Of a stretch of 64,000 nt of DNA, positions 19,222 through 47,230 are shown one piece after another. Numbering within the stretch: the first letter of the stretch is position 1; each line of letters begins with the position of its first letter. The stretch is from Armatimonadota bacterium (GTDB lineage: Bacteria; Sysuimicrobiota; Sysuimicrobiia; Sysuimicrobiales; Humicultoraceae), in NCBI GenBank assembly GCA_031459855.1, contig JAVKHP010000001.1:478059-542058 (forward strand). Reading direction: 5' to 3'. Under the pieces are notes generated by a model. The model was not told where the DNA came from. It saw only the letters and a list, made by a program, of their open reading frames with translations, and did not search any database. A program made the translations under genes and the position numbers.

Positions 19222-19400
19222 ACCAACTCCATAGCCGCCCGACGCCGAATCCCTGCCCAGGCAGGGAGCGGGGGAACCACCCCGGGGTTCTATGGCCCCG
19301 GGCGCGTTCGTGGGGCGAAGGTCGCAGCCGCGACCGGGGGCGCTCTCGACCCCAGCCCGTCAGCTAACCTCGCAGGCGACCGAGAGAGGGCTCCCTGGCA
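19222..19400 (+). ncRNA. c-di-AMP riboswitch (ydaO/yuaA leader)
   Basis: Conserved blocks of the ydaO-yuaA class occur in the right order: GCCGAATCC, GCGGGGGAACCAC, GGGGCGAAG, then CCCGTCAGCTAACCTCGCAG and GGCGACCGAGAGAGGGC. Variable hairpins (CCCTGCCCAGGCAGGG; a GGCC-rich stem) sit between them. Boundaries are approximate. This class binds two c-di-AMP molecules and usually turns genes off by termination. Here it leads directly into a strong hairpin and the trehalose biosynthesis gene. Confidence 0.9.
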
Positions 19401-19484: not shown

Positions 19485-21887
19485 ATGGCGGACATCGGAC
19501 CTGCAACGGGGACTTCGGAGACGGCGGGCGCACGCCCCCGCGAGGAGATCCGCCAGGCGCTGCGCGGCCGACCGCTCGTGGTCGTCAGCAACCGCGAGCC
19601 CTACGTTCACCGACGCACCGCACGGGGGCTGGACGTCGAACGCCCGGCCGGGGGGTTGGTGGCTGCCCTGGACCCCGTGCTGCGGCAGGTCGGCGGCGCG
19701 TGGGTCGCGTGGGGCAGCGGCGACGGCGACTTCGACGTCACCGACACGCAGGGCCGGGTGGCGGTGCCCCCCGAGGCGCCCGGGTACGTGCTGCACCGCG
19801 TGCGCCTCTCGGGTACCGAGGTCGAACGCTTCTATCACGGCTACGCGAACCAGGCGCTGTGGCCGCTGTGCCACATGGCCACCGACAAGGCCCGGTTCTC
19901 CCGTCGCTTCTGGCGCGCCTATTGCGCGGTGAACGAGCGCTTTGCCGACGCCACGCTGCAGGCAGCCGACGCCGACGCCGTGGTCTGGGTGCACGACTAC
20001 CACCTGGCGCTGCTGCCCCGGGTGCTGCGGGAGCGACGCCCCGATGCGTTCCTGATGCACTTCTGGCACATCCCGTGGCCCGCGTGGGACGTGCTGCGCA
20101 TCTGCCCCCAGCGCGGCGACCTGCTGGACGGCCTGCTGGGGAGTAACCTCGTGGGCTTCCACCTGCCGCGTCACGTCGAGAACTTCCTCGACTGTGTCGA
20201 GCGCGAGCTCGGTGCCGCCGTCGATGCGGCCGCCGGCACGGTCACCTACCGCGGCCGGCAGACCCTGGTCGCCGCCCTCCCCATCAGCATCGACGTGGCG
20301 GCGTGGCAGGCGCTGGCCACCTCGCGCGCGTGCGAGCGGTGGATGGCCCATCTCCGCCGCCGGTTCCGGCTGGCCGACCGCCAGGTGATCGTCGGCGTCG
20401 ACCGGCTCGACTACACCAAGGGCCTGCCCGAGCGCTTGCGGGCGCTGGACCTGTTCTTCCGCCGCCATCCGACGTTCCAGGGGCGCGTCGTCTTCGTGCA
20501 AAAGGCGGCGCCCAGCCGGACGCGCATCCGGGCCTACCGCGAGCTCCAGGAGCACGTGGAGGCCGAGATCGCGCGCATCAACCGGCAGTACGGCACCCCC
20601 GACTGGCAACCCATCGTCTACGTGCCGCGCCCGCTGCCCGCCGCGGGCATGGCCGCCCTCTACCGGCTGGCCGACGTGTGCCTGGTCACCTCGCTGCTGG
20701 ACGGCATGAACCTGGTCGCCAAGGAGTTCGTGGCATGCCAGCACGACCTGCGGGGCGTGCTGCTGTTGAGCGAGCTGGCCGGCGCCATCGAGCAGGCGCC
20801 GTGGTCGGTGGCGATCAACCCCTACGACCCCGAGGGCATGGCGGACGCACTGGCCGACGCCCTGGCGATGCCGCCGGGGGATCGCGCACGGCGCATGGAG
20901 CAACTGCGGGCGCAGGTGGCCCGCCACGACGTGTACCACTGGATGGCGCAGCACGTCCGGACGGCGGCGCGGCTGCTGGAGGCCCGCACCCAGACCGGGT
21001 GGCTCTTCGCCCACCTGGATACTGTCAGGGCGCACGTGCAGGCCCGGGCCCACCTGGTGGTCGTGCTCGACTTCGATGGGACGCTGGCGCCCATCGTCGA
21101 CCGCCCCGAGGAGGCGGCAATGGTCGATGGCGTGCGCGAGCTGCTGGTGGCACTGCACGCCCCACCGCGGTCGCGCGTGGCGGTCATCAGCGGACGCGCC
21201 CTGGCCGACCTGTGCGCACGCGTGGGCCTCGACGGCGTGCACTACGCCGGCAACCACGGGCTCGAGCTGTCCGACCCGGCATGGGGCACCGCCCCGCCGG
21301 CAGACGGCGCGACGGGTGCTCTCCTCGCGCGCTGCGCGAGGAGGCTGCGCGAGCGGCTGGCCCCCGTGCCCGGGGTGCTCGTCGAGGACAAGGGCGTGAG
21401 CGTCGCGGTGCACCTGCGGCTGGTGCCGCGGGAGGCCGTCGGCCCGGTGGTCAACGAGGTGCTGGACGCGGTGGGCGCGTGTCCGCCCGGTCAGCTCGAG
21501 GTGCGCCGGGGGAAGATGGTCGTGGAGATCCGTCCCGCCGTCGACTGGGACAAGGGCCGTGCGGTGCGCTCGCTGCTGGAGACCGTGGTCGGAGCCGACT
21601 GGCCGGCACAGGCCGCGGTGATCTACGTGGGCGACGACCAGACCGACGAGGACGCGTTTGCGGCCCTGGGCCCCGGCGGCATCACCGTCCGCGTCGGGAC
21701 GGACGCCGTGCCCACCGCGGCGCGGTATCGCCTGCGCGATCCGCACGAGGTGGGTCGGTTCCTGACGATGCTGGTGCACTGGCAGGCCCCACGGACGCCG
21801 ACACCGGACCCCGACCACGTCGGCACGCCCCCGTACGGGCGCACGGGCGCGGCGACCTTGACGGTCCCCCGCGCGCCGGTAAGGTAG
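19485..21887 (+). CDS. otsBA: trehalose-6-phosphate synthase/phosphatase fusion
   Basis: 800 residues in two domains. Residues about 20-500 are GT20 synthase: VVSNREPYVHRR, PAGGLVAAL, VWVHDYHLALLPRVLRER, HIPWPAWDVLRICP, GVDRLDYTKGLPERL and LLDGMNLVAKEFVACQ. Residues about 525-770 are a HAD phosphatase: VVVLDFDGTLAPI (nucleophile Asp), VISGRAL, YAGNHGLEL and YVGDDQTDEDAF. Makes trehalose from UDP-glucose and glucose-6-phosphate in one polypeptide. The last ~25 residues come from a 69-bp tandem repeat. Glucosylglycerol synthesis is a possible alternative for GT20 members. Confidence 0.93.
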   Translation: MADIGPATGTSETAGARPREEIRQALRGRPLVVVSNREPYVHRRTARGLDVERPAGGLVAALDPVLRQVGGAWVAWGSGDGDFDVTDTQGRVAVPPEAPGYVLHRVRLSGTEVERFYHGYANQALWPLCHMATDKARFSRRFWRAYCAVNERFADATLQAADADAVVWVHDYHLALLPRVLRERRPDAFLMHFWHIPWPAWDVLRICPQRGDLLDGLLGSNLVGFHLPRHVENFLDCVERELGAAVDAAAGTVTYRGRQTLVAALPISIDVAAWQALATSRACERWMAHLRRRFRLADRQVIVGVDRLDYTKGLPERLRALDLFFRRHPTFQGRVVFVQKAAPSRTRIRAYRELQEHVEAEIARINRQYGTPDWQPIVYVPRPLPAAGMAALYRLADVCLVTSLLDGMNLVAKEFVACQHDLRGVLLLSELAGAIEQAPWSVAINPYDPEGMADALADALAMPPGDRARRMEQLRAQVARHDVYHWMAQHVRTAARLLEARTQTGWLFAHLDTVRAHVQARAHLVVVLDFDGTLAPIVDRPEEAAMVDGVRELLVALHAPPRSRVAVISGRALADLCARVGLDGVHYAGNHGLELSDPAWGTAPPADGATGALLARCARRLRERLAPVPGVLVEDKGVSVAVHLRLVPREAVGPVVNEVLDAVGACPPGQLEVRRGKMVVEIRPAVDWDKGRAVRSLLETVVGADWPAQAAVIYVGDDQTDEDAFAALGPGGITVRVGTDAVPTAARYRLRDPHEVGRFLTMLVHWQAPRTPTPDPDHVGTPPYGRTGAATLTVPRAPVR

Positions 21888-41715: not shown

Positions 41716-42504
41716 TCACTCCCGCACGGCCGGCCGCCCCAGCCCGAACGCCACACGGGCGTTGGCGCTGGTGAGCTCGGCCACCGTGCCGGGGGCCACG
41801 TCCCGCGCGCGGGCGACCGCCTGCGCGATGAGCGGCAGGTACGCTGGTTCGTTGCGCCGCCCCCGGTGCGGCTCCGGGGGCAGGTAGGGCGCATCGGTCT
41901 CCAGCAGCAGGCGGTCGGGCGGCACGTACCGGGCCACCTCCACCGCCCGCCGCGCGTTCCGGTACGTCACCGGCCCGCCCAGCCCGAGGTAGTAGCCGCG
42001 GTCCAGACAGACGCGCGCCACCTCGAGCGACCCCGAGAAGCAGTGCATGATCACGCATAGGTCCGGGTAGGCCGCCAGCACGTCCAGCGCGTCGGCGTAC
42101 GCCTCGCGGCAGTGGACGATGACGGGCAGGCTGTGCTGACGGGCGAGGTCCAGGTGTGCGCGCAGCGCGCCAAGCTGCGCGTCCCGCGGCGCGAAGTCAC
42201 GGTACCAGTCGAGCCCGGTCTCGCCTATGGCGACGACCTTGGGGTGCCGCGCCAGGTCCGCCAGCGCCGCCAGCGCCTCGGGCGTGGCCTCCGCGGCGTC
42301 GTGGGGGTGAATGGCCACCGCCGCGTAGATGTCGCCGTGCTGGGCGGCCAGGGCTACAGCGCGACGGCTGGAGGCGACGGAGGTGCCCACGCTGACGAAC
42401 CCCCGGACCCCGGCGCCGCGCGCCCGCGCCAGCACCGCGTCGAGATCCGGCGCGAACGCGGCGTCGTCGAGGTGCACGTGGGTATCGACGAGATCGAGGG
42501 TCAC
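41716..42504 (-). CDS. tatD: TatD-family metal-dependent hydrolase
   Basis: 262 residues. DTHVHLDD (metal HxH), AIHPHDAAEATPE, AIGETGLDWYRD, VIVHCREAYADAL, VIMHCFSGSLEVA and LLLETDAPYLPP mark the TIM-barrel metal site. A magnesium-dependent 3'-5' nuclease/deacylase. The metG-tatD order is widespread, supporting the call. Confidence 0.94.
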   Translation of the reverse strand: MTLDLVDTHVHLDDAAFAPDLDAVLARARGAGVRGFVSVGTSVASSRRAVALAAQHGDIYAAVAIHPHDAAEATPEALAALADLARHPKVVAIGETGLDWYRDFAPRDAQLGALRAHLDLARQHSLPVIVHCREAYADALDVLAAYPDLCVIMHCFSGSLEVARVCLDRGYYLGLGGPVTYRNARRAVEVARYVPPDRLLLETDAPYLPPEPHRGRRNEPAYLPLIAQAVARARDVAPGTVAELTSANARVAFGLGRPAVRE

Positions 42505-42601: not shown

Positions 42602-44707
42602 TTAGGTGACCCGTGCGCCCTTGGGCGCCCGGGTGTCCACGCCCACGAGCGCGACCTCGTCGTCCCCCCAGGTGGCCGCCAGCAACATGCCGCGCGACTC
42701 CACGCCACGGACGCGACGCGGCTGGAGGTTGGCGACGACGACGATCTTGCGGCCGAGCAGGTCGGCGGGCGCGTACTGCGCCGCCACGCCCGCCACGATC
42801 GTGCGCACCTCGTCGCCCAGATCGACAGTGAGCCGGAGGAGCTTGTCGGTGCCCGGCACGCGCTCGGCGGCGGTCACCTCTGCGACCCGCAGGTCGATGC
42901 GGCGGAACTCCTCGATGCTGATCTCGGGCATCCCACGTCCTCCTTCGTCCGGCAGGGCCACATGGCGGCCAGACGGCTCGCCTCCGGTGCCCGGGCTGCG
43001 ACCGGGGGTCCTGCCCTCGGCGGGGCGGCCGGCCTCCGCGCCAGGCAGTGCTGCGCCTGGCCGCGCGGCGCCGTCTGGCACCGTCCCGCCGCGCCGGGGC
43101 GGACGGGCGGCGTCTGCGGGTACGGACGTCGTGGCAGCCGCCGCGGACCCGCGCACGTCGATCCGCGGGAACACCGGCGCACCCGGCGCCACGGGCCGGC
43201 CCGCCTCCAGCCCGCCCCAACGGCGCGCGTCGTCCAGGCGTTGGGCCTCCAGCGACGCCGCCACGCCCAGCTGACGCCAGACCCGCTGCGTGGCCACCGG
43301 CAGGACCGGGTGCAGCAGGATGGTCACGACGCGCACCGCCTCCAGCGTGTTGTAGAGGATGGCACCCGCACGCACGGCTCGCCCCTGCCGGATGGCCGCC
43401 CACGGGGCCTCCTCGTCCAGGTACTTGTTGGCCGCTGCCAGCAGCCGCCAGACGTCGGCGAGCGCCAGCGAGAGGTTGGCCCGCGCCACGTGCCCGGGCA
43501 CGGCGTCGACCACGGCCCGGGCCAGCGCCCGCAGCGCGCCGTCGCCGCCCTCCTCGGCACCGGGGGCGGGCAGGCGGCCGTCGAAGTGCCGCGTCACCAG
43601 GGCAAGGGTCCGGTGCAGCAGGTTGCCGTAGTCGTTGGCCAGGTCGGCGTTGAACCGCTGGATCAGGCCGGCCCGGTTGTAGTCGCCGTCCTCGCCGAAC
43701 GGGATCTCGCGCAGCAGGAAGTAGCGCAGGGCGTCGGCGGCCACTGCCGTGTCGGTGCCAGCGCGCGCCGCCAGCTCGCGGATGGCGTCGGCGGGGTCCA
43801 CGACGTTGCCCAGCGTCTTGCTCATCTTCTGCCCCTCGACGGTGAGGAAGCCGTGCACCAGCACCTGACGGGGCGGCTCCAGGCCCGCCGACAGCAGCAT
43901 GGCCGGCCACAGCAGCGAGTGGAACCGGTTGATGTCCTTCCCGATGAGGTGGTGCGCCGGCCACCACTGGCGGAAGCGCGCCTCGTCGCCGCCGAAGCCG
44001 ATGGCCGAGATGTAGTTGGTGAGCGCGTCGAACCACACGTAGACGACGTGCCCGGGGTCGCCGGGGACGGAGATGCCCCAGGCGAGCTTCTCCACCGGCC
44101 GCGAGACGGAGATGTCCTCGAGGGTGTCGATGAGGTGCAGCATCTCGGCGTGGCGAGCGGCGGGGACGACGAAGTCGGGCCGGTCCTCGAACAGGCGGCG
44201 CAGCTGCGGTCGATACTTGGACAGGCGGAAAAAGTAGTTCTCCTCTTCGATCACCACCGGCTCGGTGCCGTGGTCGGGACAGCGGCCGTCCACCAGGTCG
44301 CTGAGGGTGACGAAGGCCTCGTGCCCCACGCAGTAGAGCGCGCGGTAGTTCTTCTTGTACAGGTCGCCGGCGGCCGCCACGCGGGCCCAGAGCGCGCGCA
44401 CGCCGGCCGCGTGGCGCGCCTCGGTGGTGCGGATGAAGTCGTCGCACGAGAGGTGCAGCAGGTCGATGAGCGCCCGGAAGCGGGCGGCGTTGGCGTCGAC
44501 GAACGCACGCACGTCCTGACCCGCGGCCTGGGCCGAGGTGACGTTCTTCTGCCCGTGCTCGTCGGTGCCGGTCAGGAAGAAGACCCGCCGGCCGAACAGG
44601 CGGTGGTACCGGGCCAGGGCGTCGGCCACGATCTTCTCGTACGCGTGCCCGATGTGCGGGCTGGCGTTGACGTAGTCGATGGCCGTGGTGATGTAGAACG
44701 CGTCCAT
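42602..44707 (-). CDS. metG: methionyl-tRNA synthetase
   Basis: 701 residues from ATG 44707 with GAGGAGG upstream. Class I HIGH variant ASPHIGHAYEK near the N-terminus and KMSKTLGN (about residue 298) are both present; YFFRLSKYRPQLRRLF and VYVWFDALTNYISAIG are typical. Residues about 593-701 form an EMAP/Trbp111-type tRNA-binding domain (DLRVAEVTAAERVPGTDKLL; GRKIVVVANLQPRRVRGVES). About 80 residues of Ala/Pro/Gly/Arg linker join them, with a complete internal ribosome binding site before residue 593. Confidence 0.96.
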   Translation of the reverse strand: MDAFYITTAIDYVNASPHIGHAYEKIVADALARYHRLFGRRVFFLTGTDEHGQKNVTSAQAAGQDVRAFVDANAARFRALIDLLHLSCDDFIRTTEARHAAGVRALWARVAAAGDLYKKNYRALYCVGHEAFVTLSDLVDGRCPDHGTEPVVIEEENYFFRLSKYRPQLRRLFEDRPDFVVPAARHAEMLHLIDTLEDISVSRPVEKLAWGISVPGDPGHVVYVWFDALTNYISAIGFGGDEARFRQWWPAHHLIGKDINRFHSLLWPAMLLSAGLEPPRQVLVHGFLTVEGQKMSKTLGNVVDPADAIRELAARAGTDTAVAADALRYFLLREIPFGEDGDYNRAGLIQRFNADLANDYGNLLHRTLALVTRHFDGRLPAPGAEEGGDGALRALARAVVDAVPGHVARANLSLALADVWRLLAAANKYLDEEAPWAAIRQGRAVRAGAILYNTLEAVRVVTILLHPVLPVATQRVWRQLGVAASLEAQRLDDARRWGGLEAGRPVAPGAPVFPRIDVRGSAAAATTSVPADAARPPRRGGTVPDGAARPGAALPGAEAGRPAEGRTPGRSPGTGGEPSGRHVALPDEGGRGMPEISIEEFRRIDLRVAEVTAAERVPGTDKLLRLTVDLGDEVRTIVAGVAAQYAPADLLGRKIVVVANLQPRRVRGVESRGMLLAATWGDDEVALVGVDTRAPKGARVT

Positions 44708-44777: not shown

Positions 44778-45890
44778 CTACGCGCCGGCGCCCACCGCCT
44801 CCCGGGCCAGCCGCGCACCCTCCACCAGGTTGCGTAGCTTGGCGAAGGCCACGTCCCAGGTGCGCGTACGCAGGCCGCAGTCGGGATTCGCCCAGAGCCG
44901 TTCCGGACCCAGCACGCGGGCGGCCTCCAGCAACCGGTCCCGGATCTCCTCGGGTGTCTCGATCACGTCCGAGTGCACGTCGAGCACGCCCAGGCCCAAC
45001 TCGCGCGTGTCGCCGTAGTCCTTGAAGATCGAAACGATGTTGTAGTCGCCGGTGTTCTTGAACTCCAGCGCCAGGTGGTCCACCCGCATCCCGAGGATGT
45101 GGGGGTAGAGCAGCCGGTAGTCGCTGTAGCAGACGTGGATGCTGAGCTTGGCCGGGACGTCGCGCACGGCCTCGTTGAAGGCCTCGACCAGGATCGGCAC
45201 CTCGTCGGCGTGGGTGGTGGCTGCCGGCTCGTCCACCTGGATCCAGTCGGCGCCCGCCGCGGCCAGCGCCCGCAGCGTCGGGTTCACGACCTCCCGCGCC
45301 AGGTCCAGCGTGAGGGCGCGCTTGGCTTCCCACGCACGACGCTTGAGGTCGCGGGTCCCGCCGCCCTGGGCCTGCAGGTAGTACTCGTTGAACGACCAGT
45401 CGGCCAGGGTGTAGGGACCGGTGACCGGGACCTTCACGGGGCGGCGCGCCACCGCCTTCACGAACCGCAGCTCGTCCACGTGGAAGGGCGCGGTCAGGCG
45501 CACCCGGTCCACCACGGCGGCCTTGCGGTAGTACTTGTTGTCGAACGACCGCACGTGGCCGTAGAAGCGGAACCCGTGGATGCGCCGCGCCGCGTACTCG
45601 TACATCTCCACGCGGCGGGCCTCGCCGTCGTACACCACGTCGAGCCCGGCCGCCTCCAGGAAGCGCACGGCGAACAGCGCGGCCCAGTCGCGCACGCGTT
45701 CGCGGTCGGGCGCCGGCGAGCGCAGTAGCGCCTTGAGGTCGTCGACGCCCTCGATGCCCAGCACCCGTGCCCACCGGTCGATCTCCGCCAGGTCGGCGTC
45801 GGTCGCGGGCTGCCCGCGGGTCGCCCGGACCAGCCACCCGGGCTTGGCCAGGCTGCCGATCTCCTGGGTCGGAAACAGCTTGGTCGCCAC
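44778..45890 (-). CDS. cobalamin-independent methionine synthase, core type (catalytic)
   Basis: 370 residues from GTG 45890, which has GGGAGG 8 nt upstream; GTG 45899 overlapping the previous stop is the alternative. LFPTQEIGSLAKPGWL start; TGPYTLADWSFNEYY; IQVDEPAATTHADEVPI; zinc ligands IHVCYSD (His and Cys), LEF (Glu) and NPDCGLRTRTW (Cys). Matches the C-terminal catalytic half of MetE or archaeal core-MetE, lacking the N-terminal MetE half. Probably methylates homocysteine from a corrinoid protein or folate. Confidence 0.85.
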   Translation of the reverse strand: MATKLFPTQEIGSLAKPGWLVRATRGQPATDADLAEIDRWARVLGIEGVDDLKALLRSPAPDRERVRDWAALFAVRFLEAAGLDVVYDGEARRVEMYEYAARRIHGFRFYGHVRSFDNKYYRKAAVVDRVRLTAPFHVDELRFVKAVARRPVKVPVTGPYTLADWSFNEYYLQAQGGGTRDLKRRAWEAKRALTLDLAREVVNPTLRALAAAGADWIQVDEPAATTHADEVPILVEAFNEAVRDVPAKLSIHVCYSDYRLLYPHILGMRVDHLALEFKNTGDYNIVSIFKDYGDTRELGLGVLDVHSDVIETPEEIRDRLLEAARVLGPERLWANPDCGLRTRTWDVAFAKLRNLVEGARLAREAVGAGA

Positions 45891-46852: not shown

Positions 46853-46920
46853 GCTCTCCTCCCTGTCCTGCCCTGTCCTGCTCCATGTCGTTGCCTGTCG
46901 CCCCCGCCCGTGGGCCCGGC

Positions 46921-46956
46921 AAACAAACACCCTCCCGCCCGAACTGGACGGAAGGG
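46921..46956 (-). terminator. T-box terminator hairpin
   Basis: 11-bp stem (46956-46946 with 46940-46930; two G-T pairs), 5-nt loop, then TGTTTGTTTG. It shares its left arm with the 3' side of the T-box antiterminator, as required for the switch. About 70 bp before the MetE-paralogue ATG. Confidence 0.85.
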
Positions 46957-47195
46957 CTCCGTGGTACCACCAGGATGCGCGCCGGCCTCGCGGCAGACGC
47001 CTCGATGGGTGGTCATCGACCACCCGTGCCCGGTCTCGGGGGCACGCCGTTCGGACTACAGGCGTCGTGCGTTCGCCCGAAGGCTCGGAAGCCATGTTCG
47101 GCGACGTCCCGCCACCGGCTCACACCCGTCCCGGCTCGCTCCGGCCGGCCCGCCGCCTACTCCCGCTCCGTCATCGCCGTCACGATATCGGACTG
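46921..47195 (-). ncRNA. T-box leader, Met specifier
   Basis: Reads toward the MetE-like genes. Stem I begins with GATGACGGAGCGGGAGTAGG (about 47175-47156); distal arm has AGCGAGCCGG and GGTGTGAGCCGG; specifier loop GAAC-ATG-G with codon ATG at 47095-47093; antiterminator holds the T-box core TGGTGGTACCACGG (46972-46959). An ATG-specifying T-box senses uncharged tRNA-Met. The ATG at 47095 is a specifier, not a start codon. Boundaries are approximate. Confidence 0.9.
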
Positions 47196-47200
47196 GCCTC

Positions 47201-47230
47201 ATTCTAGGGACGCGGGTCAGCGCGTGTCAA
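47201..47230 (-). promoter_or_regulatory. sigma-70 promoter of T-box operon
   Basis: TTGACA (47230-47225), 18-bp spacer, TAGAAT (47206-47201). Transcription should start about 47194. The -35 box overlaps the stop codon of the upstream methyltransferase gene. Confidence 0.82.

Follow-up and report, generated by a model that had tools for sequence, protein, structure and literature searches.

A methionine-specific T-box leader probably governs an archaeal-type split MetE gene pair and metG in the phylum CSP1-3 (Sysuimicrobiota)

Organisation of the locus

The window, by which we mean the whole 64,000-nucleotide stretch of DNA that was analysed, carries on its minus strand a leader region followed by two methionine synthase-related genes, designated metE-N and metE-C, and then by metG, a tatD-family gene and a gene for an M48 peptidase (Table 1). 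Direct reading of the minus strand from 47230 to 46853 reveals all the elements of a transcriptional Met-specific T-box leader, and the promoter, stem I, ATG specifier, core and terminator were each found where an earlier reading of the sequence (the original prediction) had placed them. The -35 box of the promoter overlaps the TGA stop codon (47229-47227) of a methyltransferase gene that lies upstream, and a promoter-like box is also present 5' of the orthologous leaders. The T-box core, TGGTGGTACCACGG (46972-46959), occurs only once in the window when both strands are searched. The bulge of the antiterminator (46969-46963) contains the sequence UGGU, which is complementary to the A73-CCA end of tRNA-Met, and the terminator hairpin (46957-46929) has 12 pairs that are followed by GTTTGTTT (shuffles: mean 0.0, sd 0.2).

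Table 1. Coordinates of the leader elements, genes and additional RNA features (window positions unless a locus is given)
Feature	Coordinates	Strand	Evidence or remark
Sigma-70-type promoter, TTGACA-18-TAGAAT	47201..47230	-	Sequence reading and promoter search
T-box leader RNA, full span of model RF00230	46941..47183	-	38.2 bits, E 7e-7
Stem I, including specifier-loop strands AGTA (47161-47158) and GAA (47099-47097)	47083..47177	-	Rfam match and covariation
Specifier codon ATG (Met), ending six bases before GAGC	47093..47095	-	In-genome register, invariance and TBDB +0 frame
Antiterminator, CTGG-[TGGTACC]-ACGGA...CCGT-CCAG	46944..46973	-	Fold (-8.5 kcal/mol) and covariation
Intrinsic terminator with U-run, exclusive with the antiterminator	46922..46957	-	Terminator search, fold and covariation
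metE-N, Meth_synt_1-type (putative folate-binding) half, 318 aa	45896..46852	-	PF08267, 66.2 bits
metE-C, catalytic half, 370 aa, GTG start at 45890	44778..45890	-	Meth_synt_2, 159.5 bits
metG, methionyl-tRNA synthetase with C-terminal tRNA-binding domain	42602..44707	-	NF008900, 723 bits
tatD-family DNase gene, next in the same gene run	41716..42504	-	Gene order kept in relatives
M48 peptidase gene, after tatD	41715-40549	-	
c-di-AMP riboswitch	19233-19393	+	62.7 bits
Putative fused trehalose-phosphate synthase/phosphatase gene	19485-21887		Named from sequence
tRNA-Ala(GGC) embedded in the ilvE T-box leader	L005:1682-1756 (G000:C1:2531652-2531726)		Also in L127, L130, L135, L142 and L219-L228

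Detection and conservation of the leader

The search with the Rfam T-box model RF00230 that had been proposed with the original prediction returned a full-span match (47183-46941, model positions 1-219) in an E-value scan of 701 bases, at a score below the Rfam gathering score of 93 for this model. A default Rfam scan of the window, which applies the gathering score, reports no T-box. When the whole genome was searched with RF00230, eight T-box matches including the window leader were obtained, all of them below the gathering score. As this holds for every T-box in the genome, the low score is a property of the GC-rich genome (the window has a GC content of 72%) and not of this leader. Nearly all T-boxes in the family to which the genome belongs also fall under the Rfam cut-off, a warning that default annotation overlooks T-boxes in GC-rich genomes.

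The terminator has a folding energy of -22.8 kcal/mol (z -4.6); it has one strand in common with the weaker antiterminator, and the two structures are thus mutually exclusive. The fold of the whole leader is not decisive (z -1.5, with stem I absent from the minimum free energy structure) and covariation was therefore used instead, in an alignment of 24 orthologous leaders from the phylum. In stem I, 93.7% of cells are paired, double-sided changes are seen at 11 of the 20 pairs, and there are 57 compensatory cells, whereas shuffles give 22 and sliding of the partners gives no more than 28. The antiterminator is 94.3% paired with 15 compensatory cells (6.2 in shuffles) and the terminator 97.0% paired with 29 (11 in shuffles). 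Since compensatory change exceeds that obtained with shuffles and slid partners, the match of the leader is not due to chance. The features that characterise T-boxes are present, namely a stem I with AGUA and GAA strands and a specifier, a UGGN bulge, and a terminator that overlaps the antiterminator.

Specifier codon and tRNA specificity

The codon register was calibrated on the seven other T-boxes of the genome. The specifier is TTC in the pheS leader (GAAG-TTC-CCTCCG-GAGC), GGC in the glyQ leader (GAAC-GGC-GCTCCC-AAGC), GTC in the valS leader (GAAC-GTC-GCCCCT-GAGC), CCA in the proC leader (GAAC-CCA-CCTCCA-GAGC), CTC in those of both ilvB and ilvE, and TCC in the leader of a serC-like gene. 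In all eight T-boxes of the genome it ends six bases before GAGC or AAGC, and as the ATG of the window leader (GAAC-ATG-GCTTCC-GAGC) sits in the register of these T-boxes of known genes, we assign it as the specifier. According to the rule used by TBDB, the specifier comprises bases 2-4 from the end of the specifier bulge, the “+0” frame (PMC7778990), and application of this rule to the window leader gives the same codon. The Met specificity originally proposed is therefore upheld by the register of the pheS, glyQ and valS leaders and by the TBDB frame, and when alignment of the specifier to another codon was checked, the in-genome register still gave ATG.

In the ilvE and serC-like leaders the codon follows directly after GAA (GAA-CTC and GAA-TCC), and if the window leader were read in this way its specifier would be a different codon, for example CAT (His), and another tRNA would be sensed. 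We find this barely credible, as the position counted from the 3' side is constant in all eight leaders, the extra base after GAA recurs in the pheS, glyQ and valS leaders, only 5% of the His specifiers recorded in TBDB are CAU, and all 25 leaders of this kind identified in the phylum (see below) stand before Met genes. With ATG as the specifier, GAACATGG and the GAGC that comes after it are invariant across the 24 aligned leaders. The tRNA-Met genes of the family, of both the initiator and the elongator type, have A73 and end in A-CCA. When the T-boxes of the genome are compared, the glyQ leader alone carries UGGA, as expected for U73.

The two methionine synthase genes

The metE-N product scores higher with PF08267 (Meth_synt_1) than with PF01717 (Meth_synt_2, 39.6 bits) and its zinc ligands have been lost, with HTF present where HxC is required. 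The metE-C gene starts 5 nt after metE-N, and the zinc ligands HVC, E and C are all in place in its product, the E being read within LALEFKN. An N-type gene directly adjoins the catalytic gene in nearly all relatives, which are mostly archaea, and is usually located just upstream. This arrangement of adjacent Meth_synt_1-type and Meth_synt_2-type genes has been described as split MetE (Price et al. 2021, PMC7857596). Since a preference for Meth_synt_1, lost zinc ligands and a catalytic partner are the published signs of such enzymes, the pair is, as judged by sequence, a split MetE of the type seen in archaea (Thermoplasmatota-like), which comprises a folate-binding-type half and a catalytic half. 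As in the systems of that study, the domain content suggests that a methyl-pterin would serve as methyl donor.

The original prediction had instead regarded the two genes as core-MetE paralogues. Core-MetE (MesB) is a folate-independent enzyme fed by a corrinoid, and consists of a stand-alone catalytic domain that has no N-type partner. Both proteins are indeed single-domain and of approximately 320-370 aa, like core-MetE (PMC7005905), and some members of the phylum possess the Wood-Ljungdahl pathway (PMC11604079). Nevertheless, we reject this identity as very improbable on the basis of the domain scores, the lost zinc ligands of metE-N and the adjoining N-type partner. The two genes, moreover, adjoin each other in almost every relative, and many of these relatives are archaea known for split MetE (PMC7857596). 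The designation of the first gene as Meth_synt_1-type and of the second as the catalytic half of a split MetE accordingly replaces that part of the prediction.

Within family f1 the metE-C proteins share 71-80% identity, falling to 50-57% with several Thermoplasmata and 39% with one Thermococcus (L087). Phylogenetic analysis places the f1 clade inside an archaea-rich clade, the wider split being supported at 100/99 and the forks near f1 at 83-92%, and the f1 pair is far removed from another split MetE of families f2-f7, which belong to the same order, that is located elsewhere in their genomes. In this second, distantly related pair (L015-L036) no T-box core motif was found in loci that include a few hundred upstream bases, and no Rfam match was obtained before it at the gathering score, which misses real T-boxes in these genomes. 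The genome that contains the window also encodes a homocysteine S-methyltransferase/MTHFR fusion, a corrinoid methyltransferase cluster and a PRK06520-type MetE-like gene, as well as other homocysteine methyltransferase homologues, and the split MetE may therefore not be its sole methionine synthase.

Linkage of metG and downstream genes

As originally predicted, metG and tatD follow the pair. The metG gene starts 70 nt after metE-C, and no promoter- or terminator-like site was detected within these 70 nt. Control of metG by the leader, which had been put forward as probable, is strongly supported by the finding that the same leader directly precedes metG in 19 other genomes. It could be argued that control by the T-box ends with the split MetE pair and that metG has its own transcript, given the 70-nt gap and the fact that in three relatives metE-C and metG are further apart, with another gene between them. 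In these relatives (G004, G005 and G007) the intervening gene encodes an acetyltransferase, so that co-transcription there must span approximately 0.6 kb more. We consider separate transcription improbable in view of the lack of such sites in the 70 nt, the leaders that stand directly before metG, and the location of metG within approximately 20 nt in G006 and G001.

Distribution in the phylum and evolutionary history

When 43 genomes of the phylum CSP1-3 (Sysuimicrobiota) were searched with a pattern for the specifier region, 26 of them gave a match, each at one place. Of these matches 25 are T-boxes; the other (L238 in G029), which is not surrounded by a T-box, was discarded as a chance match. 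In 19 of the 25 genomes, representing families f2, f3, f4, f5 and f7, metG is located directly behind the leader. The remaining six, all from family f1, have metE-N, metE-C and then metG behind it, and it is only in this family that the split MetE pair lies between the leader and metG. As the leader directly precedes metG in all the other families that have it and the pair is inserted only in f1, metG is very probably the ancestral target of the leader, the synthase pair having been captured by the switch.

Genus g3 of family f1 (G002 and G008-G010; L150-L153, L173 and L174) lacks the MetE pair, and metG is preceded by a promoter. In G009 and G010 all that remains of the leader before metG is the opening bases of stem I, which are likely to be the fossil of a lost Met T-box. 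The simplest reading of these patterns, from which we infer the direction of the historical steps, is that an archaeal-type split MetE was captured in f1 by an old unit of Met T-box and metG, and that g3 has lost the switch, and also the pair if it was once present. The metG genes found behind the leaders (L229-L254; 44707-42602 in the window) are of two types, approximately 50% identical, which are mixed among the families. It thus appears that one synthetase has been replaced by another behind a leader that remained in place, unless both MetG types once coexisted. On balance we favour the view that a single Met T-box, with the same location and codon, has persisted across CSP1-3, that the synthetase behind it has switched between the two widely divergent MetG types, and that an archaeal methionine synthase obtained by horizontal transfer has been placed in between. 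If this is correct, two enzymes of archaeal origin are now under the control of a bacterial switch that senses tRNA.

The bulge sequence UGGUACC is present in 2 of the 6 f1 leaders versus 18 of the 19 metG-type leaders (Fisher p 0.005, a guide only, as the leaders compared are related by descent), and in the f1 relatives G006 (UGGG) and G005 (UGGC) it no longer matches A73. This drift in four of the six f1 leaders, together with genus g3, which no longer has MetE and retains no more than the initial portion of stem I before metG, could signify that the T-box of f1 is decaying and no longer regulates tightly. Such decay seems unlikely, since stem I, the specifier, the antiterminator helices and the terminator are kept in all six f1 leaders and the bulge of the window leader itself is intact and canonical.

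Proposed mechanism and comparison with known systems

The component parts, codon register, conservation with covariation and gene order are all read directly from the sequence. They lead us to conclude with considerable confidence that the leader is a transcription-attenuating Met-specific T-box that would raise expression of the split MetE and metG, with metG as its original target and the pair inserted in f1. From these features we infer a response to tRNA and co-transcription, as follows. RNA polymerase would start just after 47201 and make the leader, in which the CAU anticodon of uncharged tRNA-Met would pair with the AUG at 47095-47093 and its ACCA end with the UGGU of the bulge. The antiterminator (46973-46944) would thereby be held, and transcription would continue into metE-N, metE-C, metG and probably tatD. 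Charged tRNA-Met would be unable to hold the bulge, and the stronger terminator (46957-46929) would then form and stop transcription. Low methionine would consequently lead to more methionine synthesis, via the two-part MetE, and to more of the enzyme that charges the tRNA.

Met T-boxes are known from several Firmicutes. The metICFE-mdh operon of Staphylococcus aureus has a Met T-box leader for which the initiator tRNA is preferred and which is combined with CodY (PMC3771891). It resembles the window operon in that a transcriptional Met T-box precedes methionine synthesis genes including metE, but it contains other met genes and no metG, is subject to the initiator tRNA preference and CodY, and belongs to a low-GC Firmicute. 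In Bacillus cereus, metS has a Met T-box (Table 1 of PMC3771891), and this location before a methionyl-tRNA synthetase gene is the arrangement seen in the other families of the phylum, although the B. cereus operon is from a different phylum and does not include a methionine synthase. Lactobacillus plantarum and L. johnsonii, also Firmicutes, have Met T-boxes on methionine synthase, that is, on 5-methyltetrahydropteroyltriglutamate-homocysteine methyltransferase, and as far as the survey concerned shows (PMC2494555) the synthase is not joined to the synthetase. The split MetE of archaea (PF1268/PF1269 in Pyrococcus) and of Sulfobacillus has the same adjacent Meth_synt_1-type and Meth_synt_2-type genes (PMC7857596), but the window pair differs in lying behind a bacterial T-box and in being joined to metG.

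The 2008 survey of T-boxes by phylum gives none for this lineage (PMC2494555), the main paper on the phylum makes no mention of T-boxes or riboswitches (PMC11604079), and in the literature searched we found no description of a T-box combined with split MetE and metG. Each half of the system has a precedent in the Firmicutes, and what appears to be new is that the two are combined and that the enzyme pair has come to lie between a long-established switch and the synthetase. The system extends Met T-box control to a phylum without a cultured strain, and would join methionine supply and tRNA charging, known separately in Firmicutes, in one transcript. It would also offer a clear case of a foreign enzyme placed under a pre-existing RNA switch.

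Other RNA elements

During this analysis we observed a complete tRNA-Ala(GGC) gene with an encoded CCA inside the Leu(CTC) T-box leader of ilvE, on the same strand. It is positioned in the stem III loop, between stem I and the antiterminator and just before the latter. In the literature searched we found no report of a tRNA gene within a T-box leader, and no second GGC tRNA-Ala was seen among the typed tRNA matches in G000. Ten of the 43 genomes analysed, from three families of the phylum, have the embedded tRNA-Ala(GGC), with leuS replacing ilvE in G014. The flanking stem III arms vary in sequence yet still pair in most cases, G014 being the least clear. G001 (L134) and G007 (L123), which belong to one genus, have an ilvE T-box without the embedded tRNA; upstream of this T-box, at a distance of roughly 0.2 and 1.4 kb, respectively, they have a different tRNA-Ala(GGC) gene. 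It is possible that the terminated leader doubles as a tRNA precursor, or that the embedded tRNA acts on the switch in cis, and the arrangement seems to us more surprising than the Met T-box itself. A c-di-AMP riboswitch is also found in the window, immediately 5' of a gene whose sequence suggests a fused trehalose-phosphate synthase/phosphatase (Table 1).
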